Below the pieces are notes generated by a model that had not been told where the DNA came from, did no database searches, and saw only the letters and a program-made list of their open reading frames with translations. Positions 3,367 through 56,965 of a stretch of 64,000 nt of DNA are shown here, piece after piece. Within the stretch, counting starts at the first letter, position 1; each line of letters opens with the position of its first letter. A program made the position numbers and the translations under genes. The stretch spans positions 372,001 through 436,000 of the forward strand of contig NZ_MWXA01000005.1 of assembly GCF_002259795.1 (NCBI RefSeq). The letters run 5' to 3'. This DNA comes from Bifidobacterium aquikefiri. Its GTDB lineage: Bacteria > Actinomycetota > Actinomycetes > Actinomycetales > Bifidobacteriaceae.

Positions 3367-3469
3367 GCTCATTGTGAACTTGTCAAAGTATTAACTCTCA
3401 ACATCGTTGATTTTTGACCTAATTTATGGGAAAAAACAGCATTGATACTTTCGCAAGTTCACAATGAAC
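3367..3469. repeat. 103-bp inverted-arm intergenic repeat, copy A
   Basis: Left arm GCTCATTGTGAACTT at 3367-3381 and right arm AAGTTCACAATGAAC at 3455-3469. The inner blocks are AGTATT (from 3388) and GATACT (from 3444). The interior is unrelated to the other copies. It lies between the LysR stop and the TfoX-N gene. No flanking target duplication is visible. See copies at 17958, 36554, 37578 and 56851. Confidence 0.85.
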
Positions 3470-3610
3470 GGCGCGCGCTGGAATTTACTCCCCCCGCGAC
3501 CCGATATTGACGTCATGACCCTGGCTCGACGGGCATTCAAGCGCCTTTCATCACGCGTACATTTCGAATAGCATATGTGTGACGAGGCTCATTACTCTTG
3601 GAGGAGTATT

Positions 3611-3979
3611 ATGTCATCAACTCGAGAATTCGTTGAATATGTCTGCGAGACAATTCGTGAGGCGGGTGCCATTCGATATCGCAAAATGTTCGGCGACTAC
3701 ATGGTCTATGTCAACGACAAGCCGCTGTTGCTCCTATGTGACAACACCGTGTACGTCAAGATACTGCCCTGCATCGAGAACCTGATGGGAGATGCCGAAC
3801 GCGGCATCCCCTATCCAGGTGCAAAGGAGCATTACATGCTCGACTTTGAAAATCGAGAACTCGCACTGCCAGTGATAGCACAACTCGAGGAAGTCACCCC
3901 AGTACCAAGGAAAAAGCAACGAGGTGCCCGGATTTCCAGGACTTCCAAGCCCACTCCGCGCTCCGACATAGAGCAATAG
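3611..3979 (+). CDS. TfoX/Sxy N-terminal domain protein
   Basis: 122 aa, essentially a single TfoX_N domain: FVEYVCETIREAGAIRYRKM, FGDYMVYVNDKPLLLLCDN, VYVKILP, GIPYPGAKEHYMLD. In Proteobacteria this domain forms the N-terminus of competence regulators. The stand-alone actinobacterial versions have no established function, so no competence role is claimed. The C-terminal ~25 residues are basic (RKKQRGARISR) and probably disordered. ATG 3611 is preceded by an excellent ribosome-binding site GGAGGAG (3600-3606); upstream in-frame starts near 3575 lack one. It is followed after 54 bp by the DUF1801 gene, probably in one transcript. Confidence 0.75.
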   Translation: MSSTREFVEYVCETIREAGAIRYRKMFGDYMVYVNDKPLLLLCDNTVYVKILPCIENLMGDAERGIPYPGAKEHYMLDFENRELALPVIAQLEEVTPVPRKKQRGARISRTSKPTPRSDIEQ

Positions 3980-4033
3980 CATCTTGGATAGGAATGGACA
4001 CAGATATCTTCACCACAGCACGAAAGGAAACTG

Positions 4034-4399
4034 ATGACTCCAACAGCATTGCCACCGATTACAGATCCCATTGGCGATTACATTGCCGCACAATCAGTTG
4101 ACATGCAACCGCGCCTCTATGAGGTGTATCAGGCAATCGCATCGGTGCTTCCCGATGCCACGGAGAAAATGTCGTATGGCATTCCCACATTCTGGCAGGG
4201 AAGGAATCTGATTCATTTCGCCGCCTTCACGAGGCATATCGGCATTTACCCCGGCAGCAAGGCCATAGAAGCTTTCAACGATCGTCTGACCGAATACAAG
4301 ACCAGCAAGGGCACCATCCAAATCCCCAACGACAAACCACTCCCCCTTGGTCTGATCAAGGAGCTTGCCCAGTGGAGCAAGGAACACAACGCCCGCTAG
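4034..4399 (+). CDS. DUF1801 / YdhG-like iron-chaperone-fold protein
   Basis: 121 aa. Motifs of the DUF1801 (YdhG/Fra-like) family are present: YIAAQSVDMQPRLYEVYQAI, ATEKMSYGIPTFW, LIHFAAFTRHIGIYPG, KGTIQIPNDKPLP and a C-terminal helix. The fold has been called an iron chaperone because of distant similarity to frataxin-type proteins; the biochemical role in bacteria is not settled. An AAAGGA lies just upstream of ATG 4034. Same orientation as the TfoX-N gene 54 bp upstream; these two small domains are often found near each other in Gram-positive genomes (general knowledge, not shown here). Confidence 0.75.
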   Translation: MTPTALPPITDPIGDYIAAQSVDMQPRLYEVYQAIASVLPDATEKMSYGIPTFWQGRNLIHFAAFTRHIGIYPGSKAIEAFNDRLTEYKTSKGTIQIPNDKPLPLGLIKELAQWSKEHNAR

Positions 4400-4499
4400 A
4401 TAATATCCTCTCGTATCACATGGAAACTACAGCAATGGCGCCTTCGAACAACTCTGGGTAACGCCGTGAATAGCTAAGGTCAACCTTATTTTCGGTTGA

Positions 4500-5250
4500 T
4501 CACTTCAATTCCATCATTTCGACACGAGTGAGACCGCCTGACAGCAGACCCTCTGCGTGTTTGCGCAGCCAATCAGAAATAGCTTCCAGATTGTTCGATT
4601 CATAATACGCAAGCAAATGCTGTATAAAATCGCGCTTCAACCCGTGGGGCTACTGAGAATATGCCAACTCCAGCATTGATAAGGCAATGATTTGCTACCA
4701 TCAAAAGGGTTCGCTTATTGCCATTTGCAAACCATTGGCCCCTTGAAATAGCGAGGAATATGACAACCGCACGGCTTTCAGGGTCATGAAGAAGCGATGC
4801 ATCTCCGATACAAGCTCGCGCAGATTCAATCGTTGGCACGTTCGGAGTCCAGTCTGTTCCGCCAATTCTCACTGGGATTGTCCGAAGCTTATCTGGATTA
4901 GCAATCGATCCAATACCAATTATGGTGTTGTAATGCGAAACGAATGACCAATCGACAGCTTCATCGACGTGTTCACAAAGGAATTCCCACGCCCGCTTGA
5001 GATTATTCACGACAATGATGTCAGCTACACGCATTCCTTCCGGGCGCGACCTTCAAGAATTTCTTCGTTGCCCGGAAAAGTGATTCCATCGACTTCGATG
5101 TTCGCCGTTTTCCACAGCACATCAATCAACAGTCGCCTCGCCAGACGCAGCGCGTACTTTCGCTGAATATCCATATGCCACTTGTGCTTCCCGAGGACGT
5201 ATCCCTTATGGGTACTCGAACGAGTCTCAAGCGGAATGTTCTTCTGTCAT
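4500..5250 (-). pseudogene. Fic/DOC-family gene broken by frameshifts
   Basis: Read on the minus strand. The N-terminal part (RKYALRLARRLLIDVLW, then KTANIEVDGITFPGNEEI) runs in one frame from at least 5174 and ends at a stop just after LEGRARKE (about 5030). The middle part (ADIIVVNNLKRAWEFL, then the Fic core GQWFANGNKRT) is in a second frame, 5034-4600. The end (RDFIQHLLAYYESNNLEAI to EMMELK, stop at 4500-4502) is in a third frame. One shift lies near 5035-5045, the other in the C-run at about 4648-4653. The reading frame upstream of 5174 remains Fic-like (ETRSSTHKGYVLGKHKW), with a possible original ATG at 5250 and a further shift. The canonical catalytic His of HxFxxGN is Gln here. Either a decayed gene or sequencing errors in homopolymers. 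Confidence 0.8.
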
Positions 5251-5280
5251 ATTAGGCGAAGCCGAACGAGCAGCCGCAGT

Positions 5281-5550
5281 CAGCCTGCCCTGAGCGAATG
5301 CAGTGAGATGAAGGGAGAGATCTTATGCCCATGAATACCAAAAACGGAGATCCCTCAACTCGCTGCGCTCGCTCGGGATGACGGAAAAAGAGAACGGTCA
5401 GAGCGACAGGGCACCCCTTCGTCATCACCAACAACCCAGGCTCACCAACAACCCAGCCATCACCAACAACCCAGGCACCCCGAACAATCTTTTGTCATCC
5501 CGAACGGAGCCGAGGGATCTCCTGTTGATTGGGTTCCGCTCGGGATGACC
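5281..5550. repeat. Intergenic repeat patch of GGAGATCCCT...GGGATGAC type
   Basis: A 37-bp unit at 5346-5382 begins GGAGATCCCT and ends GCTCGGGATGAC. An inverted, shorter relative lies at 5494-5522 (GTCATCCCGA to GGGATCTCC), and further fragments at about 5288-5323 (CCTGAGCGAATGCAG) and 5536-5549 (GCTCGGGATGAC). No gene is supported here. The arms would let RNA from this patch fold back over about 180 bp. The units look like dispersed intergenic repeats rather than an insertion sequence: no transposase is present. Confidence 0.6.
5426..5475. repeat. Three near-identical tandem repeats inside the intergenic patch
   Basis: CACCAACAACCCAGG at 5426-5440, CACCAACAACCCAGC at 5443-5457 and CACCAACAACCCAGG at 5461-5475, with spacing of 17 and 18 bp. 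They sit in the loop between the inverted units of the surrounding patch. Confidence 0.75.
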
Positions 5551-5685
5551 GGAATGAAGCCGATCACTGCATCGACACATCGTTCAGCAGCGTGAACGAA
5601 CTCGTTCAGGATCTCAATGGGAACAATTTAGCATACGCTTCCAATTCCAAGTTTTGAAAGCGATCACAAAGAACTTTCAGAGATA

Positions 5686-5727
5686 CGCGATGGGTGGGTT
5701 GAATCGTAATTCAGCCCACCCATCGCG
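5686..5727 (-). terminator. Long hairpin downstream of pyruvate oxidase
   Basis: CGCGATGGGTGGG...CCCACCCATCGCG forms a stem of about 19 bp with a 4-nt loop 41 bp after the spxB stop codon. There is no strong T-run on the minus strand side, so it may be a transcript-stabilising or factor-assisted end rather than a canonical intrinsic terminator. Confidence 0.5.
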
Positions 5728-5767
5728 AACAGCCACTTTCTACCAGGCATTGCTCGATTCTTGTGCT

Positions 5768-7501
5768 TTAGAAGAACTGGCGCATGATGTCCTTCAGCGG
5801 CGGCATTGATGGGATCTTCCAATAATTCTCAAGATAATGGGTGCCATACTTCGTGTATCCCATGGCCTCTTCGCCAACGATCTTGCCAGGCAGCGGCGCA
5901 TTATCCTTGACATAGACGTTGATCAGCACTGGCTTGTCGGTTTCCTTGTATGCCTTCTCCAGCGCATCCTTGAATTCGGCATTGCTTCGGGCGGTGTAGC
6001 CAACGCCACCTGCAGCCTCGGCGAACTTGGCATAATCCATGTCTTCCAAATCAATCTCGTAATTCAACTGGCCTGCGCTCTGCTGTTCATATTCGATGAA
6101 GGCAAGCTTCTGATTGTTGATGACTACCTGGATGATAGGGAGCTTGTATTTGACGGCCGTCACGAAGTCCTGCATGACCATTGCAAAGGCGCCATCTCCA
6201 GAAACGCTGATATTCTTTCGCTCCGGATACGATTCAGCACCTGCGATGGCACTTGGCAGACCGCAGCCCATGGTGCCCAGCCACGCCGAGATCGAATACT
6301 TCTGCGTTGGCTGAACGTGAAGGAACCGCGCTCCCCACGAAGTCGATGTACCGACATCGATGGAATAGACAGCATCCTTCGGAGCGGTCTCGTCAATGCT
6401 GGCGAACACTGCCTCAGGTGAGGCAGGCGTGGTATTGAGACTGCGCTTCTCGGACATCCACTTGTTCCAGATGTCCATATCCTTCTGGCATGCCTTGAGA
6501 AAACGATCATCACTGCGCAGAGCACCCTTGGCATTGAGTTGTGAGACGACGGCACCCGCGTCGCCATCAATGGCAAGATCAACTGCATAGCGACTGCCCA
6601 GATTCTCCGGGCAGGTATCAATCTGAATGCACTTGGCCTGGCCTGCATCCGGCAGATACGGCGTGTATGGATAATTTGTGCCGATCATCAGCAGCAGATC
6701 AGTCGACTTCATTGCCTCATACGCTGGCTTCGTTCCCAACTTGCCAACGTTGCCAAGGCTGTTTGCATGGTCATCGGCAATCGTGCCCTTGGCTGGCATC
6801 GTCAGGATAAATGGAATGTTGTTGGTCTCGACGAACTTCTGCAACTCGGCACCGGCGTGCTCGCCACCCTTGCCAATCAGCGCAAGTGGCTTCTGTGCCT
6901 GCTGTACCATGGAAATGGCCTCGGCAAGCTGCTCGTCATCGACCTGCGGAGTGCTGAGCTTGAATGCAGCGGCACTATCCTTGTATTCGTTCGTAACTTT
7001 ATGATCTGGAAGATCATCGGGAATGGTCAGGACTGCAACACCCTTTTTTGTCATTGCCGCACGAATGGCCGAGTCCACGACCTTGCCAAGATTGTCCGAA
7101 GCGGAAATGGTCTTGTTAAAGACTGCGACGTCGTCGAAAAGCTTAGGGGTATTGACCTCTTGGAAATAGCCTTCGTTGATGTCCTTCGTAGTGACCTGAC
7201 CGAGCAAGGCGAGCACGGGCACATGATCCATCTTGGCATCATACAGGCCATTGAGTAAATGAATCGCACCAGGTCCGCCAATGGCGAGGCACACGCCCAC
7301 ACCACCAGTAAGTTTGGCATTCGCGGCTGCAGAGAGCGCTGCGACTTCCTCGTGCCGTACCTGAACGAACTTGATTTTCTCCTGATTGCGTCGCAAAGCA
7401 TCGACTGTGGTGTCAATCGAGTCTCCTGGCAAACCGAAGACGTGCTTTACTTTCCAATTCATCAACACACTGACCAGTTGGTCAGCAGCTTTTGTCGACA
7501 T
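5768..7501 (-). CDS. spxB: Pyruvate oxidase, thiamine-diphosphate dependent
   Basis: Converts pyruvate, phosphate and O2 to acetyl phosphate, CO2 and H2O2 (SpxB type), or pyruvate to acetate with a quinone (PoxB type). The 577-aa protein has the N-terminal pyrimidine-binding domain (ADQLVSVLMNWKVKHVFGLP, catalytic Glu in VRHEEVAAL), a central FAD domain, and the C-terminal ThDP motif GDGAFAMVMQDF...VVINN. The end LPGKIVGEEAMGYTKYG resembles lactic-acid-bacterial SpxB more than the membrane-binding tail of PoxB. ATG 7507 directly abuts the AAAGGGGA site; ATG 7501 has proper spacing and is preferred. Not a core bifidobacterial gene as far as I know. Acetyl phosphate would feed acetate kinase of the bifid shunt. 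Confidence 0.88.
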   Translation of the reverse strand: MSTKAADQLVSVLMNWKVKHVFGLPGDSIDTTVDALRRNQEKIKFVQVRHEEVAALSAAANAKLTGGVGVCLAIGGPGAIHLLNGLYDAKMDHVPVLALLGQVTTKDINEGYFQEVNTPKLFDDVAVFNKTISASDNLGKVVDSAIRAAMTKKGVAVLTIPDDLPDHKVTNEYKDSAAAFKLSTPQVDDEQLAEAISMVQQAQKPLALIGKGGEHAGAELQKFVETNNIPFILTMPAKGTIADDHANSLGNVGKLGTKPAYEAMKSTDLLLMIGTNYPYTPYLPDAGQAKCIQIDTCPENLGSRYAVDLAIDGDAGAVVSQLNAKGALRSDDRFLKACQKDMDIWNKWMSEKRSLNTTPASPEAVFASIDETAPKDAVYSIDVGTSTSWGARFLHVQPTQKYSISAWLGTMGCGLPSAIAGAESYPERKNISVSGDGAFAMVMQDFVTAVKYKLPIIQVVINNQKLAFIEYEQQSAGQLNYEIDLEDMDYAKFAEAAGGVGYTARSNAEFKDALEKAYKETDKPVLINVYVKDNAPLPGKIVGEEAMGYTKYGTHYLENYWKIPSMPPLKDIMRQFF

Positions 7502-7551
7502 GAACATTCCCCTTTACCTAACGCTATGTTTCCCCCGTGATAACGGTTCTA

Positions 7552-7563
7552 CATACACGTATG
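7552..7563 (-). promoter_or_regulatory. Candidate operator in the spxB promoter region
   Basis: CATACACGTATG is a perfect 5-bp-arm inverted repeat with a 2-bp spacer, 50 bp upstream of the spxB start and within an imperfect longer dyad (CTACATACACGTATGGTAG). The rest of 7508-7763 holds only the spxB upstream region and the pyrE downstream region; no gene is supported there. Function is inferred from position only. Confidence 0.3.
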
Positions 7564-7763
7564 GTAGTGAAGGGAAATTGTTTCAAGAGACTTTTTCAAT
7601 GTCTACTTCATTACATTTGAGTGACCAAACTACTCATTTGCAAGGATTTAAGCCAAAAGTCAGGACAGTCCCGTACCTGCAATGTGACGAATGCCACACG
7701 CCTTCAGGAGCCACTTCGAAGAGCTGCAAGCAGTAAAAAGCGTGGAGCGCCTGGCGCAATTGC

Positions 7764-14843: not shown

Positions 14844-17800
14844 TTACATGATGCCATAGAAGAGGCGGTTGCTGATCTCTCGGCAGCGGCGCATCTTTGC
14901 CAGCACGTCATTTTCAAATCTCTGGCCCTGATGCGCGGCATAGCCAAGATAGATGGCTATGCCGCCCAATGAATAGACGTCATCGGGCAGGATGTCTGCG
15001 CGTGTGGCCCTACCGGACCATAGATAGCTGCCATTGCGGGCAGCGGTGCACATAATCCATGTCTCGCGCAGATTATCGGCATCCTCCACATCGATCAAGC
15101 CTTCGCGGCGCAAAGATTCCAGCGCTTCCAGAGTTGAGGTTGTCTGCAACGCAGGAATGTCATGAGCATGCTGCAACTGCGACAATTGAACCGTCCATTC
15201 GATGTCTGAAAGACCGCCCTTGCCGAGTTTGATGTGACGTTCTCTCCTGACCCCACGCGGCAAACGCTCAGATTCCATTCGCGCCTTCAATGTGCGGATT
15301 TCACTGATCTGATCATCGGTCAAGGCAGACTTGGGGTATCTCAGAGGATTGATGATGTCATCAATAATCCTGTGGCCTAAATCGGAATCTCCTGCAGCGA
15401 AGCGAGCTCTGAGCAAAGCTTGTGATTCCCATGTGCTTGCCCAGGAGCGGTAGTATTCACGGCATGAATCATAGGACCGCACCAGCGGACCGTTCTTGCC
15501 TTCCGGTCGAAGATCCATATCGAGATCGATTTTTTCTTCCACACTCACAGAGCCTGACAGCACCAGACGCATGTCGTCGATCACGTGGAGCGCAAAAAGG
15601 TTGGCTTCATGTGAATCTGCACCCTGCTTGGGCTCATACACTGCGATGATATCGGCATCTGAACTGAAATTCACTTCGCTGCCGCCATATCTTCCCATTG
15701 CAATGATGGCGATGTTAGCCGGCGCAAGTGCGGCCTTCGACTGATCAATCTGTCTGGTTACCGCCCATCTCAGCGTTGCGGAAAGAATGGCGTCATACAC
15801 ATCCGTCATGCCCTGAAGACATTCACTCTCCGACACTGCATGACTCATCCATCCAAGACCGATGCGTTCGATCTCATGCCGGCGCATGGCTCTGATCGAT
15901 GTGGCGAATCCAGCAGGCTTATCGGCAAAACGTTCGACTGTAGAACGGGTCTGCGTACGAAGGCTCATTTGTGAACGAAGCTGCAACTGCTCGTCGGCAC
16001 CAAGCCAGGTAATGGATTCCGCAGATTTGCGCAATGCCTCTCCAAGGAATCTCGAATTGGAGAGAATATGACATAACCGCTGAGCCGCGGAGGGCGAATC
16101 TCTCAAAAATCCGAGATATTGGCTGCCCGTACCAAAACGCTCTTGCAAGCTTCTCCAGCCAAGCAGTCCCATATCTGGATTCTGCCCCTGACCAAGCCAT
16201 TCCAAGACTGCTGGCAGGAGAATCCTGTTGATCTTGGCGGCACGCGACAAGCCTGTTGTCAAGACCTCAACATGGCGCATGGCTGCCTGCGGATCCGCAA
16301 AGCCGATGGAAGCGAAGCGATCCTCGGCTGCCTCCCTGCTCAGCCGAATGTCATCGGTCTGAGTCTGCGCGCTGATGGGGAGCATGGGACGATAATAGAT
16401 ATCCTGGTGCAGCTTGCGAATCTCGCGCCTTGTGGCATCGAAACGGTTCACCAGCTCATCGGAATGAATGTTGAATGCACGCGCAAGTCTGCGTAGGTCG
16501 ATGTTTGCGTCCAACTCCTCTCGCGTGATCTCACGAACGCGTTCCATACCACCGTAACTTCCTTTACCTAAATCTGGGAAGAGATGGGTCCGCTTCAACT
16601 CCCACATCTGTTGACGATGTTCCAACACACGTTCGAAGCGATAATCCTGCGAAAGTCGAACGGCCTGTTTTCGAGAGATGTAACCGCCGCTGGCCAAGGC
16701 TTGCAAGGATTCCAAGGTTGATGCCGTACGTAGGGTGGCATCGGTTCGGCCGTGAACGAGCTGCAGCATCTGTACCGTGAATTCAACATCGCGCAATCCT
16801 CCACGACCCAGTTTGATCTCGCGATCCTTCAACGGCGCAGGGATAAGAGACTCGACCCGTTTGCGCATGCTCTGGCAGTCGTACACAAAATTACTGCGCT
16901 GCGACGCGTTCCATACGAACGGCCGAGTTCCGTCATAATAGGCTTTTCCAAGTTCGGCATCTCCAGCAACCGGTCGTGCCTTCAACAATGCTTGGAATTC
17001 CCAGCTTTCCGCCCACTGCTCGTAATAGCTGAGATGCGATTGAAGCCGACGGACCAATGGGCCATCCTTGCCCTCTGGCCGTAGTCCCCCATCGATCTGC
17101 CACAATGCTGGCTCCGTAACGCCTGCAATCACCGACTGACAGATTTTCTGCACCATCATCGCAATCTTGCTGCCGATTCGAATCAGCTGTGCATTATCGA
17201 CTTCTTCGCTGACTGGTTCGACAACATAGATGAGATCGACATCCGAGACGTAATTCAACTCCTGCGAGCCCAACTTGCCCATGCCGATTATGGCAAAGCG
17301 GCAGATATCGCCATGCTCGACGTTGTTCTTTGCTATGGCAAGCGCCGCCTCAAGCGCCGAATCGGCCAATGCAGACAGCATCGTGCTCACACGTGGCTGA
17401 ACATCGATCGGATTGCGCGTCTGCGCATCGAATTGCATGATCGCTGCAAGTTGAAGATAATATTCGCGCCGCATCGAGTTGACTGCCTCAGCAAGTGACT
17501 TGTCAGCATCCTCGGTCATGGCACTCTTGCGCTGTGCAACGTCGAATTGCAACGAATGCTGTGCATCTTTCGCCGCTGCAATAACCAGTTCGGGCCTGTT
17601 CATCATCATGAATCCAAGAGCCTTTGAAACTCCAAGAACCATGGTCAGATTTGCAATCTGACCATCTTCTGGAAGCTTGTCATGCAATCTCAACCCCTGC
17701 CGGTGCAGCGAACCGATAATGTCATAGAGATTTCTCAAGGCTGTATCAGGATCGCAAGCTCGTGCAAGGCTGCTCAGAAGAAGTGATATGCACTGGCTTC

Positions 17801-17957: not shown

Positions 17958-18060
17958 GTTCATTGTGAACTCCCCAGAGTATAGACCCACCAGAATGACA
18001 GAATATGCCACTCATTTAGCGGAAATATAGTGTTTATACTTCAACGAGTTCACAATGAAC
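17958..18060. repeat. 103-bp inverted-arm intergenic repeat, copy B
   Basis: Left arm GTTCATTGTGAACT at 17958-17971 then AGTATA; right arm TATACTT then GAGTTCACAATGAAC ending 18060. It lies 14 bp after the metF stop and 48 bp upstream of the glnE start, so it could affect metF 3' processing or the glnE promoter. Confidence 0.88.
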
Positions 18061-18074: not shown

Positions 18075-18917
18075 TCAGGCAAAGAGTGAGCGAACATTGT
18101 TCCAGATTCTGCGGGTGGTTACTGCCTTGTTCATCGTATAGAGATGAATGCCGTCGACTCCGCGTGCAACAAGATCGGAAATCTGTGCGGATGCGTAGAT
18201 GATGCCCGCCTCCTGCATGGCAGAAGGGTCTTCACCCCACCGTTCAATCATGTGTTCGACAGTTGAAGGGATGCGCGAACCGCACATGCCCACCATATGT
18301 TTGACTCGAGAAGCGTTCGTAACCGGCATGATGCCGGCCTCGATGGGAACGGTAATGCCCGCGGCACGAACCTTGTCCAGGAATTTCAGATAATCCTCGT
18401 TATCAAAGAACAGTTGCGAAATCAGGTGATTCGCGCCTGCATCAACCTTGGTCTTCAAATTATCGATATCAACATCGAGATTTGGGGCTTCTGGGTGGCA
18501 CTCTGGATAGCATGCGGCATATACGGTCATCTCAGGCTTACGCTCACGAATATAACGCACCAGATCACTCGCATATTGGAACTCGCCGCATGGATCGGTT
18601 CCCAGCTGAGAATCACCGCGCAAGGCGAGTGTCGCTTTCACCCCTGCATCCTCAAACAGATCGAGCTCATGATCAATCGTTGTCTTGTCAGCATATCGGG
18701 CGGTCAGATGAGCGACCGCCGGTATGCCGTATTCTGTTCGAATTGTATTTGCAATTCTGGCCGTCGCCGTGCGATCTGCCTGCTTTCCCGTTCCGTAGGT
18801 AACCGAAATGAAGTCAGGATGCATGCCTTGCAAGCCGTCCAGGGTGTCATAGATGGTTCCGACCGGCGCAGTTCTGCGTGGAGGAAACACTTCAAGCGAA
18901 AACATTGGAGAATGCAA
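18075..18917 (-). CDS. metF: 5,10-methylenetetrahydrofolate reductase
   Basis: Makes 5-methyl-THF, the methyl donor used by the adjacent MetE. 280 aa. MFSLEVFPPR at the N-terminus (catalytic Glu), DFISVTYGTG, HLTARYAD, LALRGD, AACYPECHPEAPN, GANHLISQLFFDNE, VPIEAGIMPVTNA and GIHLYTMNK. It lies 2 bp downstream of metE with GGAG upstream of TTG 18917; ATG 18905 is the alternative start. Transcribed with metE as a two-gene unit. Confidence 0.95.
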   Translation of the reverse strand: MHSPMFSLEVFPPRRTAPVGTIYDTLDGLQGMHPDFISVTYGTGKQADRTATARIANTIRTEYGIPAVAHLTARYADKTTIDHELDLFEDAGVKATLALRGDSQLGTDPCGEFQYASDLVRYIRERKPEMTVYAACYPECHPEAPNLDVDIDNLKTKVDAGANHLISQLFFDNEDYLKFLDKVRAAGITVPIEAGIMPVTNASRVKHMVGMCGSRIPSTVEHMIERWGEDPSAMQEAGIIYASAQISDLVARGVDGIHLYTMNKAVTTRRIWNNVRSLFA

Positions 18918-35924: not shown

Positions 35925-36078
35925 TATGCGATCGCGAGCACTGCTGCGATAGATGAGGATGATACTGCCAGCATACGGGAAATTTCGTCACACCGTTTCA
36001 TTCACCGATCTGTACAGACCATTTTCTATCCGCCCGCAACAAGCACCATTTCGCACCTCTCACGCTAATGTTGCATAT

Positions 36079-36552
36079 ATGCGAATAGTCTTGCAACGGG
36101 TTTCCTCCGCTTCGGTAAGTGTAATATCTCAACAAGAACCTTCACACACCGATGCCATGCCGCTTCCTGAGCCTCAGGGCATCGGCATTGGCTTCCTCCT
36201 GCTCGTCGCCGTGAGCGACATCGACAATGAAGACACGGTCTCTTGGATGTCACACAAAATTGCTCACTTAAGAATCTTTGAAGATTGCGCAGGCAAAATG
36301 AACCGCTCGATTCAGGAAATCAAGGGTTCTATTCTCTCGATATCGCAATTTACGCTGTATGGAGACGCTCGAAAAGGAAATCGTCCCAGCTTCACGGCGG
36401 CAGGAAAGCCTGAACACGCGGCACAGATATGGGATCAGTTCAATGAGGCACTTCGTAGCCAAGGCATCATCGTCCGAACCGGCACATTCGGTGCCCACAT
36501 GTCTGTACAACTCGTCAATGATGGTCCAGTGACACTTATTCTCGAGCGCTGA
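36079..36552 (+). CDS. dtd: D-aminoacyl-tRNA deacylase
   Basis: Hydrolyses D-amino acids from mischarged tRNA. 157 aa. MRIVLQRVSSASVSV at the start, GIGFLLLVAVSD, the catalytic SQFTLYGDARKGNRPSF and the Gly-cisPro motif GPVTLILE at the end. An insert QQEPSHTDAMPLPEPQ at about residues 19-34 makes the first loop longer than usual. ATG 36079 opens the conserved N-terminus; the 42 upstream in-frame codons are not supported. The 103-bp repeat copy C starts 1 bp after its stop. Confidence 0.93.
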   Translation: MRIVLQRVSSASVSVISQQEPSHTDAMPLPEPQGIGIGFLLLVAVSDIDNEDTVSWMSHKIAHLRIFEDCAGKMNRSIQEIKGSILSISQFTLYGDARKGNRPSFTAAGKPEHAAQIWDQFNEALRSQGIIVRTGTFGAHMSVQLVNDGPVTLILER

Positions 36553-36553
36553 G

Positions 36554-36656
36554 ATTCGTTGTGAACTTCGACAGGTATAGTACGGTATTTTTTGGCGGAA
36601 ATCACTGTATATGCTTAAGAAAATCATTGCTGTATCTTTTGAAGTTCACAATGAGC
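36554..36656. repeat. 103-bp inverted-arm intergenic repeat, copy C
   Basis: Left arm ATTCGTTGTGAACTT (36554-36568) then GGTATA; right arm AAGTTCACAATGAGC (36642-36656) preceded by TGTATC. The most diverged copy, with two changes in the left dyad and one at the right end, yet the total length is unchanged. It abuts the dtd stop codon. Confidence 0.82.
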
Positions 36657-36749: not shown

Positions 36750-37604
36750 ATGGATATCACACAAGATGAGGCTTGGCTGAGTTCAGCGAACTCAGAATTA
36801 GAACGATGCTTTCATTTGGCAAGAAAGGCGCGAACTCCACTGGTGCTTGCCGGTTTAACAGCCATAGCGCTCATGGGTCTGCCACCACCATGGAATCAGG
36901 ACAGAGACCAGCTGCGCGTGACAGTCTGTGCATCCCCGCAACAACAAAGATCGAAACAGAGAGACATTCGAGCTATCTATTGGAGCCTGCCCTTTTTCAC
37001 ATCAACAATTACATGCGGTGACATATCAATGAATATTGTCGATCCAGTGACCGCATGCCTCCAAAGTCTGCGCGACATAAGCAAAGAAGAGGCGGTTGTC
37101 CTGTTCGATTCACTTCTCGCAAGAGGAGCAAATCGAAAAGAGGTCTCCAAGCAAGATCTTGAATGTCTGATAAACACAAATCAGCGATTTGTTGGAAAAG
37201 CTAGCGCACGGTGGGCGTTGGAACGCTGCAGAGAAGGAACTGACTCTCCCATGGAATCCCGGCTAAGAATAAAACTCATTCAGCATCATTTTCCATGCCC
37301 GCAGGTGAACTACATGATTCAACATCCACAAACAGGTGAGATCTGGCTTGCGGATCTCGCCTACCCCGAACTCAAGATCGCGATTGAATACCAAGGCGTC
37401 AGGTTTCATACATCCAAAGAAAGCCTGAAAAGAGACAGCCGTAAGAGTTCCGCTCTTCAAGGAATGAAATGGAATCTCATCCCAGTAACATCAGAAGATA
37501 TTCTCGATCAAACATGCTGGAATCGATTTACGGACACACTTGAGAGCGTTATTGTGGCGCAATCAGCCCGATACTCGGTTCATTGTGAACTAGATGAGGT
37601 ATAA
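36750..37604 (+). CDS. AbiEi-like / DUF559 (Vsr-type endonuclease fold) domain protein
   Basis: 284 aa. N-terminal segment ARTPLVLAGLTAIALMGLPP resembles the fold seen at the start of AbiEi-type antitoxins. The C-terminal domain has the DUF559 order MESRLRIKLI, WLADLAYPELKIAIEYQG, LIPVTSEDI: the PD-(D/E)xK-like residues E, D and E-x-Q are present, but the usual EYDG reads EYQG. No cognate toxin is adjacent. No Shine-Dalgarno is visible at ATG 36750; base composition looks more AT-rich than neighbours (by eye). It is bracketed by repeat copies C and D, and copy D supplies the last codons. Function unknown; nuclease activity untested. Confidence 0.65.
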   Translation: MDITQDEAWLSSANSELERCFHLARKARTPLVLAGLTAIALMGLPPPWNQDRDQLRVTVCASPQQQRSKQRDIRAIYWSLPFFTSTITCGDISMNIVDPVTACLQSLRDISKEEAVVLFDSLLARGANRKEVSKQDLECLINTNQRFVGKASARWALERCREGTDSPMESRLRIKLIQHHFPCPQVNYMIQHPQTGEIWLADLAYPELKIAIEYQGVRFHTSKESLKRDSRKSSALQGMKWNLIPVTSEDILDQTCWNRFTDTLESVIVAQSARYSVHCELDEV

Positions 37605-37680
37605 CTGCCGAGAAATCGGGTAATCAGTACCGAATACAGCGTAAAAAATGCGTTTATACTTCGCTCAGTTCACAATGAAC
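37578..37680. repeat. 103-bp inverted-arm intergenic repeat, copy D
   Basis: Left arm GTTCATTGTGAACT (37578-37591) then GGTATA; right arm TATACTT then CAGTTCACAATGAAC ending 37680. The left arm encodes the last nine residues and stop codon of the DUF559 gene; the right end lies 16 bp from the ftsQ stop. It occupies the convergent junction between the two genes. Confidence 0.88.
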
Positions 37681-37696: not shown

Positions 37697-38737
37697 TCAC
37701 TGAATGATCGGTCGAAGTGGCGCGGAAACGTCGACATCATGCTTTGATCCGATCTTGCTGGGATCGTTGATGATCTTATCCACGACCGCTTTCTTCAGCT
37801 CAAGCTGCGAAGCGTCGCCCCAGACGATGGTGTATTTCCCCGAACTGATTTCCGTGGTGATGGAATCCTGTGTATTCGCCGTGACCTTGGTGATACTCTG
37901 ACGCATGCTTTCAGGCAGCGAAGCCAGAATCTTCAACGCCTGCTTGACAGCATCGTTGGCAAGTCCACCTTTGAGCGTCGACACCTGGATCTCGGGAATG
38001 CCCGTAACGGTTGCAGCCGTGACGGTGTTCAGGATGCGCGCCTCACTGTCTACAGCGGTCAAAGTATTATTCGAGGATTTCAACACTGCGGCAGGCTTCT
38101 CCGATTTCACGCTTATGCGGATTCCATGAGGATAGAGCTTTTCGGCTTTCGCCGATGTGACACCTGGGAGTGCACCAACTTGATTTTCAACCGTCTCGGT
38201 GGAAACGAGGAGCAAGGACTTTCCTACCTGCTTCGCCGCTATGGCACTGATCTCATTCGAAGACACCCATTGGTTTGCACCAGTGACCTTGATGCCTGAA
38301 ATCTCAAATCGAAACACGGAGGAGAAAAACAACATCCAGACCAGCAAAACCACAAGAGCGGTTGCAGATACCACGATAGAAATTCTGGTCAGGGATTTAT
38401 ATAATCCTGCCTTACGCCGTTCTTTCAGTCTTGCAGTGAAATCAACGACCTTTGGCCTGGTAAACATGCCCGGAATCGGACCGGAATCCTCACCTTCGAC
38501 AGGTTGCTCATGCAGCGAACGAGCAACTCGTTCATCTACAGATTCCGAAGCATCCAGCACTCTCGCATCAACAAAATCACCATCGGATGAGCTCGTAGTC
38601 ATATCAGAACGCGCAGTCCGAGGAGAGTCACCACTATGCGCCGACTGCGGCTTTCGCCCAGACTCGGCAGAACGTACCGATCTTCCCTTGTCATCGCGAT
38701 GTGGGGTGTGTCCGGAACTGACTGTTTTTCGAGCCAT
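37697..38737 (-). CDS. ftsQ: Cell division protein FtsQ
   Basis: Bitopic divisome scaffold. 346 aa: a long Ser/Arg-rich cytoplasmic region (residues 1-~115), one transmembrane helix (SIVVSATALVVLLVWMLFFS), then POTRA (FEISGIKVTGANQWVSSNEI, LPGVTSAKAEKLYPHGIRIS) and the FtsQ beta-domain (TITTEISSGKYTIVWGDA...KKAVVDKI). GGAAAGG supports ATG 38737. Last gene of the dcw cluster in this window, 19 bp after murC. Confidence 0.9.
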   Translation of the reverse strand: MARKTVSSGHTPHRDDKGRSVRSAESGRKPQSAHSGDSPRTARSDMTTSSSDGDFVDARVLDASESVDERVARSLHEQPVEGEDSGPIPGMFTRPKVVDFTARLKERRKAGLYKSLTRISIVVSATALVVLLVWMLFFSSVFRFEISGIKVTGANQWVSSNEISAIAAKQVGKSLLLVSTETVENQVGALPGVTSAKAEKLYPHGIRISVKSEKPAAVLKSSNNTLTAVDSEARILNTVTAATVTGIPEIQVSTLKGGLANDAVKQALKILASLPESMRQSITKVTANTQDSITTEISSGKYTIVWGDASQLELKKAVVDKIINDPSKIGSKHDVDVSAPLRPIIQ

Positions 38738-52749: not shown

Positions 52750-52784
52750 CCCCACTTTACCCCATAACACTCCACTTTTCCCCA
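52750..52784 (-). promoter_or_regulatory. MraZ operator: four TGGRG boxes with 10-bp period
   Basis: On the minus strand TGGGG, TGGAG, TGGGG and TGGGG start exactly 10 bp apart (52784, 52774, 52764, 52754), each with a 5-bp spacer. This is the known MraZ box architecture (TGGGN direct repeats) and lies 45 bp upstream of mraZ. TATAAG/TATATT just upstream (about 52785-52803) are candidate -10 boxes. Confidence 0.88.
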
Positions 52785-52922
52785 CTTATAAACAAAATAT
52801 ACGTTCACTTGCTTGTTCTGTTGGGAAACTCACAATTTCTGGGATCCTGACGCATGTCATATCAATGACAAGGCTCTGAGGTATATTGGATTGCCCAGTT
52901 TTTGTAGGAGGAATGGATACGA

Positions 52923-55202
52923 ATGTCGCAATACTCTTCCCAATTGCAGGATGAACAACGAGCAACCGATCGTGCTTATGCACGCTTGGATTCATTACGC
53001 GCCCAGATACGTTCACGACTCGATGCCGTGCGCGCTGCGGGGTCGCATGGTTCACCGACACAACGTACCGAACGTGATTCATTCGCGACCCTGTACGAGG
53101 ATCGCCTGACCCAACTGCGGGCAGTGGAGGACAGGCTCGTGTTTGGCAGACTGGATAGCAGACAGGGCGAACATCGTTACGTGGGAAGAATTGGATTATC
53201 AAGCGAAGATCATGAACCAATTCTTACTGATTGGCGAGCCGATGCAGCTCGGCCGTTCTATGAGGCCACTCCTTCACATCATGGCGACATCGTGATGCGT
53301 CGACATATCACGCTGAGCTTTCGTGATGTCGTGGCCATTGAGGATGAAATTCTCGACATGAACTCTCCCACCGTCAGTCAGGCATCACAATCGGGTACTC
53401 TTACCGGCGAGGGTGCGTTGCTGGCTTCCCTGAGTTCACGCCGCACCGGGAAAATGACCGACATCGTTGCCACCATCCAGGCTGAACAGGATCGAATCAT
53501 TCGATCCGACATGGCGCATGCAGTGGTAGTACAGGGCGGTCCCGGTACAGGCAAGACCGCAGTCGCCCTGCATCGTGCTGCATACCTGCTTTATACCCAT
53601 CGCCGCACACTTGAGCGTTCAGGTGTGCTGATCATTGGTCCCAGCTCAGCATTTCTGCATTATATTGACCAAGTTCTGCCTTCTCTGGGGGAAACGGGCG
53701 TTATTAGCCGAACCATTGGCGATCTGATTCCTGGAGTCGTGGCTACTGCACAGGAATCGCCCCGCGTGGCTGCATTGAAAGGCGACATTCGCATGAGGCA
53801 TGCGATCGCCAATGCTGTGGCCGCACGTGTCAGAATTCCCCCTGCGCTGCCAGGCATTCATGTGAATGGCTTGATCGTTCCCATCCTCAGCACAGACATC
53901 GAACAGGCGCAGGGCGATGCACTTCGCACACATCAGCCGCACAACAAGGCGCGAAAGACTTTCGTGCGTTCGATGATGCACGCTCTCACCAACAGGTATG
54001 CCGAGCAGCTCGACTACACTCCAGAACAGTCCGAACTCTCGCATGCCACATCGGTGTTCCGTTTGAACGATGACGTACGCAAGACCTTGAATCTTGCATG
54101 GCTTCCCATGAACGCCGCCTGGCTTTTGTCGGATATGTGGGCAAAACCTGAACATTTGAGACACTTTGCACCTTGGCTCAGTAATGAGCAGATACACATG
54201 CTCAGCCGTCCAAAAGGATCGCCGTTCACCATATCTGACATTCCTCTGTTGGACGAGGCGATGGATGTGCTCGGTCCAGACCCCAAGAGCATAAGAAATG
54301 TCTCTGCTCAGGCTTCACGACGTGCTCACGATGAGCAGATTGCCTCAGAAACACTTGGACAGGCGGGCATTGGCAATGGCATTGTCACCTCCCAGATGCT
54401 GGTCGACCAGATGACGGCCGACGATGACGAAACCATGTCTCAACGTGCAGCCTCCGATCGAGAATGGACCTATGGCCATATCGTTGTTGACGAGGCTCAG
54501 GAACTGACCGCAATGGACTGGCGCATGCTCATTCGCAGATGCCCATCACGTTCTTTCACGATTGTTGGCGATGTTGCCCAGACATCTGCCCTAGGCGGTT
54601 CCAGATCCTGGCAGAAGACGATGACTCCTCTCTTCGGTGAACATAATTGGACGCTCAACGAGCTCAGCATCAACTATCGAAACCCAAAAGAGGTTTCAGA
54701 TCTCTCTTCACGCTTTGCCAAAGAGGAGGGGCTTTACATTTCAACCGTGAATGCAGTTCGAGCGATTCCCGATTCCGTGCAGAACATCACCGTTGAGGCA
54801 TCGTCAGACTTAAGTTCGCGCATTTTCCAGGAATTGGATGTGCTGCGTCCGCAGTTTGTCTCGTCCGACGGCAGTGGTCGCATAGCGATCATCGCAGAGG
54901 CGAGCATGATACCAGATATCTCGCGCAACCTTGATACCTACATCAATACGCGTTTGAATGCCGATGACCGCTTCCGCCTTCAATCGCAACATTCGTGGGA
55001 CAGGCAGATTGGCGTCTATAGAACTGAAGAGGTCAAAGGGCTGGAATTCGATGCGGTGATTCTCGTTGAGCCCGGTCTGATGGAGAACAATGCCCCCTCT
55101 CGCATCGTTGCGGCTTCCGATCTCTATGTCTCGATGACGCGACCGACCCAAAAACTTGTCATTATTCGAACACGGCAAGATACTGACGACCTCCCACTAT
55201 AA
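52923..55202 (+). CDS. HelD-type RNA-polymerase-associated ATPase (UvrD/Rep superfamily 1)
   Basis: 759 aa. N-terminal antiparallel coiled coil (DEQRATDRAYARLDSLRAQI onwards, residues ~8-75), Walker A VVVQGGPGTGKTAVALHRAA at ~200, a long helical insert, Walker B HIVVDEAQELTAMDW with FTIVGDVAQ, then INYRNPKEV and the C-terminal EVKGLEFDAVILVEP and YVSMTRPTQKLVII motifs. The order matches HelD, which frees stalled RNA polymerase; the actinobacterial relative HelR protects against rifampicin. DNA unwinding is not implied. AGGAGG precedes ATG 52923. 10 bp upstream of serA: one transcript, divergent from mraZ. Confidence 0.85.
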   Translation: MSQYSSQLQDEQRATDRAYARLDSLRAQIRSRLDAVRAAGSHGSPTQRTERDSFATLYEDRLTQLRAVEDRLVFGRLDSRQGEHRYVGRIGLSSEDHEPILTDWRADAARPFYEATPSHHGDIVMRRHITLSFRDVVAIEDEILDMNSPTVSQASQSGTLTGEGALLASLSSRRTGKMTDIVATIQAEQDRIIRSDMAHAVVVQGGPGTGKTAVALHRAAYLLYTHRRTLERSGVLIIGPSSAFLHYIDQVLPSLGETGVISRTIGDLIPGVVATAQESPRVAALKGDIRMRHAIANAVAARVRIPPALPGIHVNGLIVPILSTDIEQAQGDALRTHQPHNKARKTFVRSMMHALTNRYAEQLDYTPEQSELSHATSVFRLNDDVRKTLNLAWLPMNAAWLLSDMWAKPEHLRHFAPWLSNEQIHMLSRPKGSPFTISDIPLLDEAMDVLGPDPKSIRNVSAQASRRAHDEQIASETLGQAGIGNGIVTSQMLVDQMTADDDETMSQRAASDREWTYGHIVVDEAQELTAMDWRMLIRRCPSRSFTIVGDVAQTSALGGSRSWQKTMTPLFGEHNWTLNELSINYRNPKEVSDLSSRFAKEEGLYISTVNAVRAIPDSVQNITVEASSDLSSRIFQELDVLRPQFVSSDGSGRIAIIAEASMIPDISRNLDTYINTRLNADDRFRLQSQHSWDRQIGVYRTEEVKGLEFDAVILVEPGLMENNAPSRIVAASDLYVSMTRPTQKLVIIRTRQDTDDLPL

Positions 55203-55212
55203 GGTATGAAAT

Positions 55213-56412
55213 ATGCCTAAAGCTTTGCTACTTGAAAATATTCATCCCTTTGCGGCCGAATCATTGCGTAATCACGGATTCGAAGTCAATACGCAGCCAG
55301 GGGCACTCGACGAAGATGACCTGATCGAGGCTCTTGACGATGTGGATGTTCTTGGAATTCGTTCCAAGACCAATGTTACGAGACGCGTTCTCGATGCCAG
55401 ACCCGGTCTGACTGCCATAGGCTGCTTCTGCATCGGAACGAACCAGGTCGATTTGGACTATGCAGGATCGCATGGCATCGGTGTGTTCAATGCACCATAT
55501 TCAAACACACGATCCGTTGTTGAGCTGGTCATCAGTGACATCATCAGTCTGATGAGGAGAATCCCTGCACATTCGCACCGCATGCGCGATGGCGTATGGG
55601 ATAAGTCTGCCTCAGGCTCGCACGAGGTACGCGGCAAGACTTTGGGAATCATCGGCTACGGCAATATTGGCGCACAGCTTTCAGTTCTCGCCGAGGCATT
55701 GGGCATGCGTGTCGTCTTCTACGACATCGAAGAGAAGCTCGCCCTTGGCAATGCACATAGAGCTGGGAGCCTGGAAGAGCTCCTGCTTCAGTCCGATGCA
55801 GTGACGCTGCATGTTGACGGACGAAAGTCCAATACCGGTTTCTTCGGTGAAGATCAATTCTCACACATGAAGCAGGGCTCAATATTCATCAACATTTCCA
55901 GAGGATTCGTTGCGGATTTGGATGCATTGAAGCGCCATCTTGAATCCGGTCATCTTTCAGGCGCTGCCATCGATGTATTTCCCAAGGAACCCCGCAAAAG
56001 TGGCGATGCGTTCGATTCCTCATTGAATAAGGAAGACAATGTCATCCTGACGCCGCATATTGGCGGTTCGACTCTCGAAGCGCAGGAATCGATAGGTCAT
56101 TTCGTTTCCCAAAGGCTCTTGGATTATTGGGAGAAGGGATCCACCACTCTCTCCGTTAATTTGCCAGAACTCACGCTGGGTGCAGTTTCTGGCGTTACAC
56201 GCATTGCACACCTTCACAAGAATCTGCCTGGAGTCCTTGCTCAGGTTAATCGAATCCTTGGTGAAGAAAACATCAATGTCAATGCACAGTCGCTGGCAAC
56301 TGAAGGCGAATTGGGATATGTGGTCACTGATGTTTCCAGTATGCCCAGCAACGATGCTTTCCAGGCATTGCAGGATCTTTACGGGAGAATTCGCATGAGA
56401 ACCCTGAAATAG
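55213..56412 (+). CDS. serA: D-3-phosphoglycerate dehydrogenase
   Basis: First step of serine synthesis. 399 aa. LGIRSKTNVTRRVLDA, GCFCIGTNQVDLDYA, NAD motif LGIIGYGNIGAQLSVLAEAL, catalytic Arg in FINISRGFVAD, Glu in DVFPKEP and His in ILTPHIGGSTLEAQE, plus a C-terminal ACT domain (HKNLPGVLAQVNRILGEENI) for serine feedback. This is the short E. coli-like type, not the long mycobacterial form with an extra allosteric domain. AAGG precedes ATG 55213. Confidence 0.94.
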   Translation: MPKALLLENIHPFAAESLRNHGFEVNTQPGALDEDDLIEALDDVDVLGIRSKTNVTRRVLDARPGLTAIGCFCIGTNQVDLDYAGSHGIGVFNAPYSNTRSVVELVISDIISLMRRIPAHSHRMRDGVWDKSASGSHEVRGKTLGIIGYGNIGAQLSVLAEALGMRVVFYDIEEKLALGNAHRAGSLEELLLQSDAVTLHVDGRKSNTGFFGEDQFSHMKQGSIFINISRGFVADLDALKRHLESGHLSGAAIDVFPKEPRKSGDAFDSSLNKEDNVILTPHIGGSTLEAQESIGHFVSQRLLDYWEKGSTTLSVNLPELTLGAVSGVTRIAHLHKNLPGVLAQVNRILGEENINVNAQSLATEGELGYVVTDVSSMPSNDAFQALQDLYGRIRMRTLK

Positions 56413-56460
56413 CCTACATACTCTACATGCAGGAGCGTCCAGTGCGACGACATGCGCATG

Positions 56461-56492
56461 CAATCCCCGCGTTCCTTGGAATGCGGGGATTG
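56461..56492 (+). terminator. Hairpin terminator of serA
   Basis: CAATCCCCGCGTTCC, TT loop, GGAATGCGGGGATTG: a 15-bp stem with one mismatch, 48 bp after the serA stop. The following T-tract is short, so it may act for both strands as a general end signal. Confidence 0.75.
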
Positions 56493-56850
56493 CTGGCATT
56501 TAGGGACAGACAGCTCATCGTCCATCTGTCCCGATGATTGGATGCTGACCGGTTCTGCATGTTGGTGGATCGTGTCAGTGTCGTGTTTGATACGTGTCGT
56601 ATACCTTCGTGCGTCAGGCAGTTGCATTGTTTCGTAGAATACCGGTCAATACCTTGTACTTGCTCAGGCGAATAACACGCTGTTGCCGATGGATACCGGT
56701 TGGACGGTTTATTGGTCGGATGGGGCTCACATGCCTGTCGTGAATGGGCTATATGTTGCCTTAGATGAGAAGCGAAGCCAGTCCACGCTCATGAAGACCG
56801 TCCTCCTGCCACCGGTACCGTCGGTAGACCGCCAATGAACCTACCGCAGC
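56493..56850. other. Non-coding stretch with a doubtful 49-codon ORF
   Basis: No recognised gene between the serA terminator and repeat copy E. The only coherent reading is a 49-codon ORF at 56689-56838 (+), starting MDTGWTVYWSDGAHMPV, open upstream to about 56640 without another start. It has no ribosome-binding site and no match that I recognise; it could be a remnant of a lost gene. At 56833-56840 a CAATGAAC forms an 8-bp inverted repeat with the left end of copy E. Confidence 0.3.
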
Positions 56851-56965
56851 GTTCATTGTGAACTTCGCCAAGTATAAAAAGCACTGGAAAGGGTGATATC
56901 AGTTTCAAAATGGTCAAATTTCCATTGATTCAAGTCATCTATACTTCGTGAAGTTCACAATGAAT
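56851..56965. repeat. Inverted-arm intergenic repeat, copy E (115 bp)
   Basis: Left arm GTTCATTGTGAACTT (56851-56865) then AGTATA; right arm TATACTT then AAGTTCACAATGAAT ending 56965. Twelve bases longer than the other four copies. It lies between the convergent serA and nrdR genes, not directly at a stop codon. Confidence 0.87.

Follow-up and report, generated by a model that had tools for sequence, protein, structure and literature searches.

The stretch of DNA analysed here, referred to as the window, covers 64 kb of the Bifidobacterium aquikefiri genome (G000, 2.41 Mb) and holds five copies of a repeated element, each end of which carries a 13-bp dyad, P1 (GTTCATTGTGAAC):

Element 1, 3367..3469, 103 bp: P1 dyads at 3367-3379 and 3457-3469, ACTT-N4-AAGT dyads at 3378-3389 and 3447-3458; 32 bp past the stop codon of a LysR-type regulator gene (2405-3334)
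Element 2, 17958..18060, 103 bp: P1 dyads at 17958-17970 and 18048-18060; it follows the stop codon of an MTHFR-like gene (18075-18917, minus strand) by 14 bp and precedes the start of a glnE-like ORF by 48 bp
Element 3, 36554..36656, 103 bp: P1 dyads at 36554-36566 (2 mismatches) and 36644-36656; 1 bp past a D-Tyr-tRNA deacylase-like gene (35953-36552)
Element 4, 37578..37680, 103 bp: P1 dyads at 37578-37590 and 37668-37680; flanked by convergent ORFs, one (36750-37604) with its stop codon inside the left arm and the other, on the minus strand (37697-38737), of the FtsQ/POTRA type
Element 5, 56851..56965, 115 bp (longer by roughly a helical turn): P1 dyads at 56851-56863 and 56953-56965

The positions and lengths (103, 103, 103, 103, and 115 bp) that the earlier note on this DNA had given for the five copies were all borne out. 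P1 is exact in six of their ten ends, has one mismatch in three and two mismatches in one. With up to two mismatches it is found 16 times in the window, six of these outside the elements, against 2.15 ± 1.31 times in shuffles. The earlier note was right that the family is real and wrong in counting five copies, as the genome contains 47 elements with 94 ends, all of them paired. The pattern TTCATTGTGAACTN6RGTA, allowing two mismatches, gave 47 forward and 47 reverse ends genome-wide and its reversed control gave none; this count, to which the earlier note had looked for a decision, rejects a chance origin of the repeat. No lone end of the GTTCATTGTGAAC type was found in the genome at two or fewer mismatches, and one half-site-like match to the end profile stands unpaired. 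Each end is made up of two adjoining dyads one helical turn apart, GTTCATTGTGAAC being centred at position 7 and ACTT-N4-AAGT at position 17.5, and all 47 elements start and finish with variants of GTTC (GTTC, GCTC, ATTC, CTTC, and the like). The ends had been described as including RGTATA, of which RGTA is near-invariant in the genome-wide end profile and the trailing TA variable. Two alignments were used, A1 with 64 of the 94 halves (from 32 copies of the 103-bp class) and A2 with 47 hand-chosen sequences (21 of the 23 elements of a third species, G016, and 26 of the 34 B. aquikefiri copies of 103/104 bp). The variable bases of the arms (positions 15-20), said earlier not to complement one another, are on average complementary, i.e., in 163 of 282 cells compared to 123.3 ± 7.0 with the arms re-dealt, a value attained in none of 10,000 re-deals. 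Many arm spacers are nonetheless mismatched. A site that merely binds a protein would have no need of such matching, for which a hairpin, the overlap region of a recombinase or descent from a common source are equally good explanations.

The lengths of the elements are quantised. The three genomes yielded 106 elements, with lengths of 103 bp (53 elements), 104 bp (25), 113 bp (4), 114 bp (21), 115 bp (2), and 124 bp (1) and none of 105-112 or 116-123 bp, so that every element falls into classes (103/104, 113-115, and 124 bp) that lie one helical turn apart. In the inner part, of 63 bp or one or two turns more, AT-rich patches recur at ~10-bp intervals and keep the register of the end dyads. 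The AT content of the interior oscillates with a 10.5-bp period (coherent power 8.2-13.2, shuffle maxima 1.7-3.3), and all 91 elements tested, i.e., those of the 106 in the main length classes, deviate by no more than 60 degrees from the mean phase of the set to which they belong, including 20 from the third species with different ends; the sets from B. aquikefiri and its sister species (G005) share orthologs and are not independent, and in B. aquikefiri alone 41 of 41 elements are in phase. The wave runs through the centre of the element, where the 114-bp class has one extra AT patch and where the 103 and 114 classes differ in phase. The interior is therefore not free, as had been supposed, its composition being constrained. 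Lengths in helical turns and phased AT are properties of the double helix that an RNA hairpin leaves unexplained, and they support the earlier preference for protein-bound ends at fixed spacing over such a hairpin.

The elements are found mostly behind genes. Of the 40 B. aquikefiri elements whose neighbouring genes are tandem or convergent, 36 have a stop codon no more than 60 bp away; this count omits five elements overlapping small ORFs and two with divergent flanks. A slightly different ORF picker gave 23 tandem, 15 convergent, and 3 divergent arrangements, and the bias of orientation towards gene ends is modest relative to background (deficit of divergent arrangements, Fisher p 0.040; excess of convergent ones, 0.038). 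In a simple scan, uninformative as to whether the elements replace terminators, intrinsic terminators were found at 6 of 53 gene ends with an element and at 20 of 250 random ones without at dG <= -8; the stricter thresholds of -10 and -12 gave 1/53 vs 9/250 and 1/53 vs 7/250, respectively. Outward promoters were considered and rejected, as each end has a TATACT but the profile, read by eye, has no properly spaced -35-like hexamer.

At least 36 elements are present in the sister species, where 71 end matches were counted and 39 pairings were reduced by three (lengths 94, 159, and 184) that overlap real elements. Among the 36 listed, 27 sit at sites orthologous to those of B. aquikefiri; 21 of these pairs are equal in length, four differ by 1 bp and two by 10-11 bp. 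In the 21 pairs the identity is 0.967 in P1, 0.924 in AAGTA and 0.69-0.74 in the interior, and the flanks of the 27 pairs drop from 0.59 to 0.50 in an ungapped comparison that understates identity where indels occur. Interior positions at AT peaks are better conserved than the others (0.79 vs 0.64-0.70; 15 pairs with both members of 103 bp). With ends 97% identical, an interior of about 70% and surroundings of 50-59% (ungapped), the ends seem, from this comparison of sequences, to be constrained in situ. Twenty of the 47 B. aquikefiri elements lack an ortholog in the sister-species DNA read, and turnover may therefore be high. In the window, no element was found at the place in the sister species corresponding to Element 2, nor between the flanks corresponding to those of Element 5. 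Element 4 is colinear with its ortholog (interior identity 0.71 vs 0.33 inverted), and so is Element 1 (0.62 vs 0.36), to which the second copy of the pair L164 was assigned as ortholog with one flank close and the other looser. The ortholog of Element 3 is inverted in place (0.51 colinear, 0.75 inverted).

Inversion of the middle relative to the flanks was observed in 6 of the 21 equal-length pairs, orientation being compared between the two species. The best-fitting breakpoints lie after position 19-28 (L052), 16-27 (L055), 5-16 (Element 3), 30-31 (L079), and 34-36 (L074), with L059 unresolved; these fits mostly beat inversion of the whole element by just 1-4 matches, and by 6 in L052.

There are also near-identical copies at different places in the sister species. 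L161 and L162 are identical at 100 of 103 positions, lie 6 kb apart and have only about 8-12 bp of flank in common, the two copies of L164 (99/103) are 1.2 kb apart with about 10-20 bp in common, and L148 and L152 (109/114) both have a left flank resembling a tRNA 3' end. As these copies show ongoing spread, mobility could account for some of the conservation of the ends. The 23 elements of the third species have the phased core with other ends, relatives detected by a core model are present in another genus, and several end-variant subfamilies on one core occur within a genome; among the end types are GTTCATTGTGAAC, CAAGTTTTTGGCACTTG, and GAGGGGTACC. Of the two kinds of element suggested earlier, one mobile in trans and the other a two-operator architectural site, both keep support, the former from the near-identical copies and the latter from retained orthologs whose ends have diverged much less than the DNA around them.

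Several explanations must be weighed. A purely selfish, non-autonomous MITE- or REPIN-like element could be moved in trans, with phasing and bending selected only for the pairing of ends by an enzyme across ~70-90 bp and with inversion as a side effect of either the enzyme or the inverted arms. The little flank shared by the near-identical copies and the end-variant subfamilies on one core, which are expected of amplifying lineages, agree with this, and inversion of a MITE is on record for the Correia element (PMC10969869). On the other hand, the orthologous pairs have kept their ends while their interiors diverged. A transposase with the same terminal repeats, which the earlier note had proposed to look for, did not turn up in B. 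aquikefiri, where all 94 ends (two or fewer mismatches) pair within 124 bp and no autonomous or longer relative was found. The genes between copies in two clusters of the third species look ordinary when their translations are read by eye, and an autonomous element inside these clusters was rejected. Mobilisation by a RAYT was rejected since the Y1/RAYT transposase domain (PF01797, E<=0.001) is found in none of 27 genomes of the genus, although the same search did detect it in 5 of 14 control genomes. Placement of the genus in the Bifidobacteriaceae agrees with a 16S primer sequence that is present in 9 of 13 of its genomes and in 0 of 6 from other families of the order. In eight comparisons of an occupied site with the other species no target-site duplication could be read, the intergenic DNA being too diverged for a clean empty site to be recognised. 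Carriage by phages was rejected with 0 exact matches in viral contigs, and the exact end pattern had 0 matches in a genome-contig collection from which near genomes may be missing and where a protein of the window matched only three distant MAGs. We consider the purely selfish element rather unlikely. Much less probable is a site-specific inverton, in which a tyrosine or serine recombinase would act on the arms, the matched N4-N6 being the overlap region and the phased bent loop serving synapsis. Like invertible promoters between inverted repeats the element is a short segment seen in both orientations at one site, its arm spacers match and its phasing agrees with synapsis over a short loop; domains of tyrosine recombinases (PF00589) are present in 27 of 27 genus genomes (7, 9, and 5 in B. 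aquikefiri, the sister and the third species) and serine recombinase domains (PF00239) in 15 of 27 (2, 6, and 2). However, the two orientations are known here from a between-species comparison, the mismatched spacers and the breakpoints varying from pair to pair do not fit, the interior is nearly symmetric, no promoter logic is seen in elements that lie behind genes, and at the domain level no recombinase stands out as tracking the element, similar ones being present in element-free genomes.

Strong sites for DNA gyrase, or for another DNA-wrapping enzyme, as a counterpart of BIME-2 are also unlikely, if somewhat less so than an inverton. According to PMC6379681, E. coli gyrase sites have a GC content periodic at 10.75 bp and are enriched in BIME-2 and downstream of highly transcribed operons, and the ~10.5-bp period and the location behind genes are shared by the present elements. 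In the gyrase motif, however, cleavage falls in a distinct central portion (-16 to +19) between two periodic flanks, whereas here the periodicity is unbroken at the centre and differs there in phase between length classes, and the specific, conserved 13-bp ends and the other end types are left unexplained. An RNA hairpin at mRNA 3' ends, acting as a bidirectional terminator, stabiliser or RNase site, is the least probable explanation. The location behind stop codons and the long stems to which the arms of the five window copies fold (-34 to -40 kcal/mol) would suit it, as would a covariation test, for which 45 of 52 sequences were kept after removal of similar copies and which placed its top four covarying 4-bp helices without exception on the main axis of symmetry. 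Yet the end sequence is itself conserved beyond its pairing, there is no RNA reason for quantised lengths and phased AT in a ~50-nt loop, no Rfam family reaches the gathering score in the window, and internal helices are inconspicuous (3.4 for the highest off-axis score vs 5.6-5.9), for which reason internal hairpins were also rejected as the source of the AT/GC wave.

The explanation that we regard as somewhat probable is that of a mobile-derived, REP/MITE-like extragenic element of double-stranded DNA, kept as a putative two-ended protein-binding site at the 3' ends of genes. It is conceivable that an end-bound protein pairs both ends across a sharply bent loop or, alternatively, that the whole ~100 bp wraps on the surface of a protein, and the resulting near-symmetric complex, mostly behind stop codons, may serve as a topological or transcription boundary. 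As the site is symmetric its middle could flip without loss, presumably when the inverted arms recombine or when template switching occurs between them, and the same events could keep the arm spacers alike. It is tempting, though doubtful, to go further and see here a new class of chromosome site, i.e., a nucleosome-like or micro-loop particle of ~100 bp with paired specific ends and a phased bendable core, placed behind genes and flippable, in which end specificity is swapped between lineages while the core is kept; this would imply that the protein binding the ends evolves fast and that a DNA-shaping partner is conserved. The lengths in helical turns and the 10.5-bp wave, present in every copy tested, can be read as traces of DNA bending written into the genome in dozens of natural replicates. 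Should the binding protein be found, the elements would offer a readable system both for DNA shaping and insulation at bacterial gene ends and for how repeats turn into fixed chromosomal sites, and the inversions between close species would allow recombination between short inverted arms to be measured.

The earlier note had left room for the repeat being already catalogued. No description of these elements was found in the literature searched, most subscription papers being outside its coverage, and Rfam gave 0 matches at gathering score in the window and, at ten further loci, six matches at E<=1 that are all far below it. The elements resemble REP dimers, BIMEs, and REPINs in being short extragenic pairs of conserved palindromic ends, inverted and separated by a spacer, in dozens of copies (5 of 47 overlap small predicted ORFs). 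REPs and REPINs are GTAG/CGTC-tagged and associated with RAYTs; the present elements have no GTAG or CGTC end and no Y1 domain in 27 genomes of their genus, and differ further in the lack of lone ends (at two or fewer mismatches), in a spacer quantised by helical turn, in phased AT in every copy tested and in their in-place inversion. MatP/matS, SlmA, Noc, and ParB have palindromic sites of about 13-16 bp scattered over the chromosome, similar in size to P1; those sites are single, whereas here they form phased inverted pairs with a shaped interior. Correia elements are about 104-157 bp long. In PMC10969869 the first of them is given as 204 bp, and a site for the DNA-bending protein IHF and inversion are reported. 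Like these and other bacterial MITEs the present elements are short (103-124 bp, i.e., below 500 bp), dispersed in 47 copies and bounded by long terminal inverted repeats. They differ in that no autonomous partner was seen at two or fewer mismatches in the ends, in that orthologous sites are retained, and in that their interiors are kept less as sequence than as helical phase; nor was a target duplication seen, in intergenic DNA too diverged to show clean empty sites.

The five copies in the window lie at the coordinates that the earlier note reported, and the family, an element of about 103-124 bp with the 13-bp dyad GTTCATTGTGAAC at each end, is found throughout the source genome (2.41 Mb, 18 contigs; window at C14:372001-436000). 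The whole-genome count proposed in that note, made by a one-ended search (TTCATTGTGAACTN6RGTA, at most 2 mismatches), returned 94 ends, 47 forward and 47 reverse, against 0 in the whole genome for the reversed control pattern, and with flanking DNA included all 94 were paired into 47 elements. A half-element profile search gave 93 matches at E <= 1e-3. One of them, a half-site at C13:46963-47001 on the minus strand (end profile, 23.5 bits, positions 10-48), without a listed partner, is possibly a decayed element or a member of another subfamily. Elements of the source genome and of a sister species (G005) were obtained by single-end search and pairing within 60-200 bp, three spurious pairings in G005 being left out, and those of a third species of the genus (G016) by a pattern permitting about 88-127 bp.

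Element lengths in bp (number of elements)
Source genome (n=47): 103 (32), 104 (2), 113 (1), 114 (9), 115 (2), 124 (1)
G005 (n=36, among the matches listed): 103 (20), 104 (3), 113 (3), 114 (10)
G016 (other ends): 104 (20), 103 (1), 114 (2)

All 106 pooled elements fall into three classes spaced by one helical turn, and none measures 105-112 or 116-123 bp. The composition of the interior is phased. In the 32 symmetrised copies of the 103-bp class, AT content has maxima at positions 25-28, 35-38 (0.91-0.95) and 45-47, with minima at 30-31, 40-42 and 50-51; the coherent power of the 10.5-bp component is 8.23, compared with at most 1.91 in 500 shuffles (best of periods 7 to 14). The phase of 91/91 elements (103 and 114 bp in the source genome and G005, 104 bp in G016) lies within 60 degrees of that of their own set, a count in which orthologs of the first two genomes are not independent and to which the source genome by itself contributes 41/41. 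The 114-bp class carries an extra AT patch at its centre (19 copies, source genome and G005). As length is quantised in turns and composition is phased in every copy tested, the double helix between the ends would follow a bend or wrap that keeps the two ends in register.

Symmetrising the same 32 copies left positions 3-14 and 22-24 nearly invariant and disclosed a second dyad, ACTT (12-15) N4 AAGT (20-23), the spacer of which makes up most of the six variable bases; the centre of this second dyad, at 17.5, is offset by 10.5 bp from that of GTTCATTGTGAAC, at 7. These variable bases had been described as non-complementary between arms, which on average is wrong because positions 15-20 agree in 163/282 cells, above the 123.3 ± 7.0 obtained with arms re-dealt. 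In a scan of column pairs from position 15 to 89 (45 dissimilar 103-mers) the four 4-bp helices with the highest scores (5.6-5.9) all fell on the main symmetry axis, and off it no helix exceeded 3.4.

Masked-flank BLAST placed 27/36 G005 elements, among the matches listed, at sites orthologous to elements of the source genome. After re-orientation, identity in the 21 equal-length pairs was 0.967 in the 13-bp dyad and 0.924 in AAGTA, 0.66 in the spacer and 0.69-0.74 in the interior, while outside DNA reached 0.59 over the nearest 10 bp, falling to 0.50 past 20 bp (27 pairs, ungapped). By position, AT peaks (0.79) were better conserved than troughs (0.70) and the rest (0.64; 15 pairs). Orthologous sites differed by a helical turn in two cases (103/114 and 103/113) and by 1 bp in four. 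Such conservation of the ends, site by site, suggests that the bent or wrapped form matters where the element sits. An ortholog was absent from the G005 DNA examined for 20/47 elements; for seven of these 20 the search for empty sites yielded a G005 place without the element, in intergenic DNA too diverged for an empty site or a target duplication to be read cleanly.

In 6/21 equal-length pairs the interior matched better when inverted, both flanks being colinear; 14 others were colinear and one ambiguous. Identity in the six was 0.64-0.84 inverted and 0.35-0.56 colinear, the background of non-orthologous pairs being 0.40 ± 0.076 (99th percentile 0.576). The inversions may stem from a recombinase or from template switching.

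Inverted pairs (source genome/G005) and best-fitting breakpoint; fits mostly differ by just 1-4 matches
L052/L179: after position 19-28, inside the arm spacer
L055/L177: 16-27, near the arm spacer
Window element 36554/L163: 5-16, further out
L079/L170 and L074/L157: 30-36, further in
L059/L174: no single best position

Near-identical copies occur in G005, at loci L161 and L162 (100/103 identical, shared flank about 8-12 bp) and twice within L164 (99/103, about 10-20 bp), and suggest that the family is still spreading or being copied. Similarly, interiors at L148, L152 and L175 (elements at about 2001-2114), the last oppositely oriented, are 0.92-0.97 identical. Recombination at tRNA genes may explain the spread of these three, since the L152 and L175 elements lie behind tRNA-Gly genes and the flank at L148, where no tRNA was called, is only tRNA-3'-end-like. 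A purely mobile element ranks second and seems unlikely to us. Taken together, length and phase, site-by-site conservation of the ends and the near-identical copies lead us to lean slightly towards a mobile-derived element kept as a predicted two-ended nucleoprotein site at gene ends. Among the 27 genus genomes a Y1 transposase domain was found in none, serine recombinase domains in 15 and tyrosine recombinase domains in all (7 in the source genome), and in a domain-level comparison no recombinase stood out as tracking the element. Among known kinds, REP dimers/BIMEs come nearest, together with MITEs such as Correia. Literature consulted was PMC6379681, PMC3733652 and PMC10969869; PMC2267715 and PMC12306157 yielded no useful match to the terms sought. 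The tetranucleotide end and the RAYT that define REP/REPIN were both tested for and are lacking here.

According to a simple ORF picker, the 47 elements lie between tandem (24), convergent (16) or divergent (2) genes or overlap small ORFs (5), and a stop codon lies within 60 bp in 36/40 tandem or convergent cases. With gaps that lack an element and are no shorter than 100 bp as the background (n=143), elements are modestly depleted between divergent genes (p 0.040) and modestly enriched between convergent ones (p 0.038). The family does not look like a regulon, as nine neighbouring window proteins tested have unrelated functions. The left arm of the window element at 37578-37680 ends the reading frame of an ORF at 36750-37604, with its stop codon in GTATAA. 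Directly 3' of the D-Tyr-tRNA deacylase gene, the site of the window element at 36554-36656, G024 carries a different inverted repeat with perfect 24-bp arms (GATAACTGCACTAAAAGTGGAGAT...; L184, 2013-2089).

Elements of G016 have the same core with CAAGTTTTTGGCACTTG or CAAGTTTTGAGAACTTG ends; 4/25 such loci map to the source-genome DNA examined, each where a GTTCATTGTGAAC element is lacking. The source genome and G005 also contain GAGTTTTGTGGCAATTGCC- and GAGTTTTGTTGCCTTT-ended subfamilies, of which the core model matches some, and end type differs between species at two orthologous places (G005 L154/source L210; G016 L129/source L048:1121). The core model matched 13/189 family genomes at E <= 0.01, a count in which several single weak matches may be chance and weak matches are, under strict filters, a lower bound. 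Matches in G056, G108 and G112, of another genus, have GAGGGGTACC-type ends and those in G089 have CAAGTTTTGAGAACTTG ends; 24/27 genus genomes gave no match at threshold, and G021 and G024 only sub-threshold ones.

Other inverted repeats
L211 (source genome) 16588-16681, L209 5166-5324 and L090 (G016) 1665-1766: GTCATCCCGAGCG...GAGTCGAGGGATCT, dispersed repeat with long inverted arms, in the source genome and G016
L082 443-540, L087 5867-5939 and L212 8520-8603 (source genome): short inverted-repeat family with GGTTGTGCTTT in the arms
L223 (G005) 820-894: inverted repeat, 75 bp long, whose 24-base arms pair perfectly, ACTAGGTTCTAGTGATTGTTGCAA; no relation to the element family
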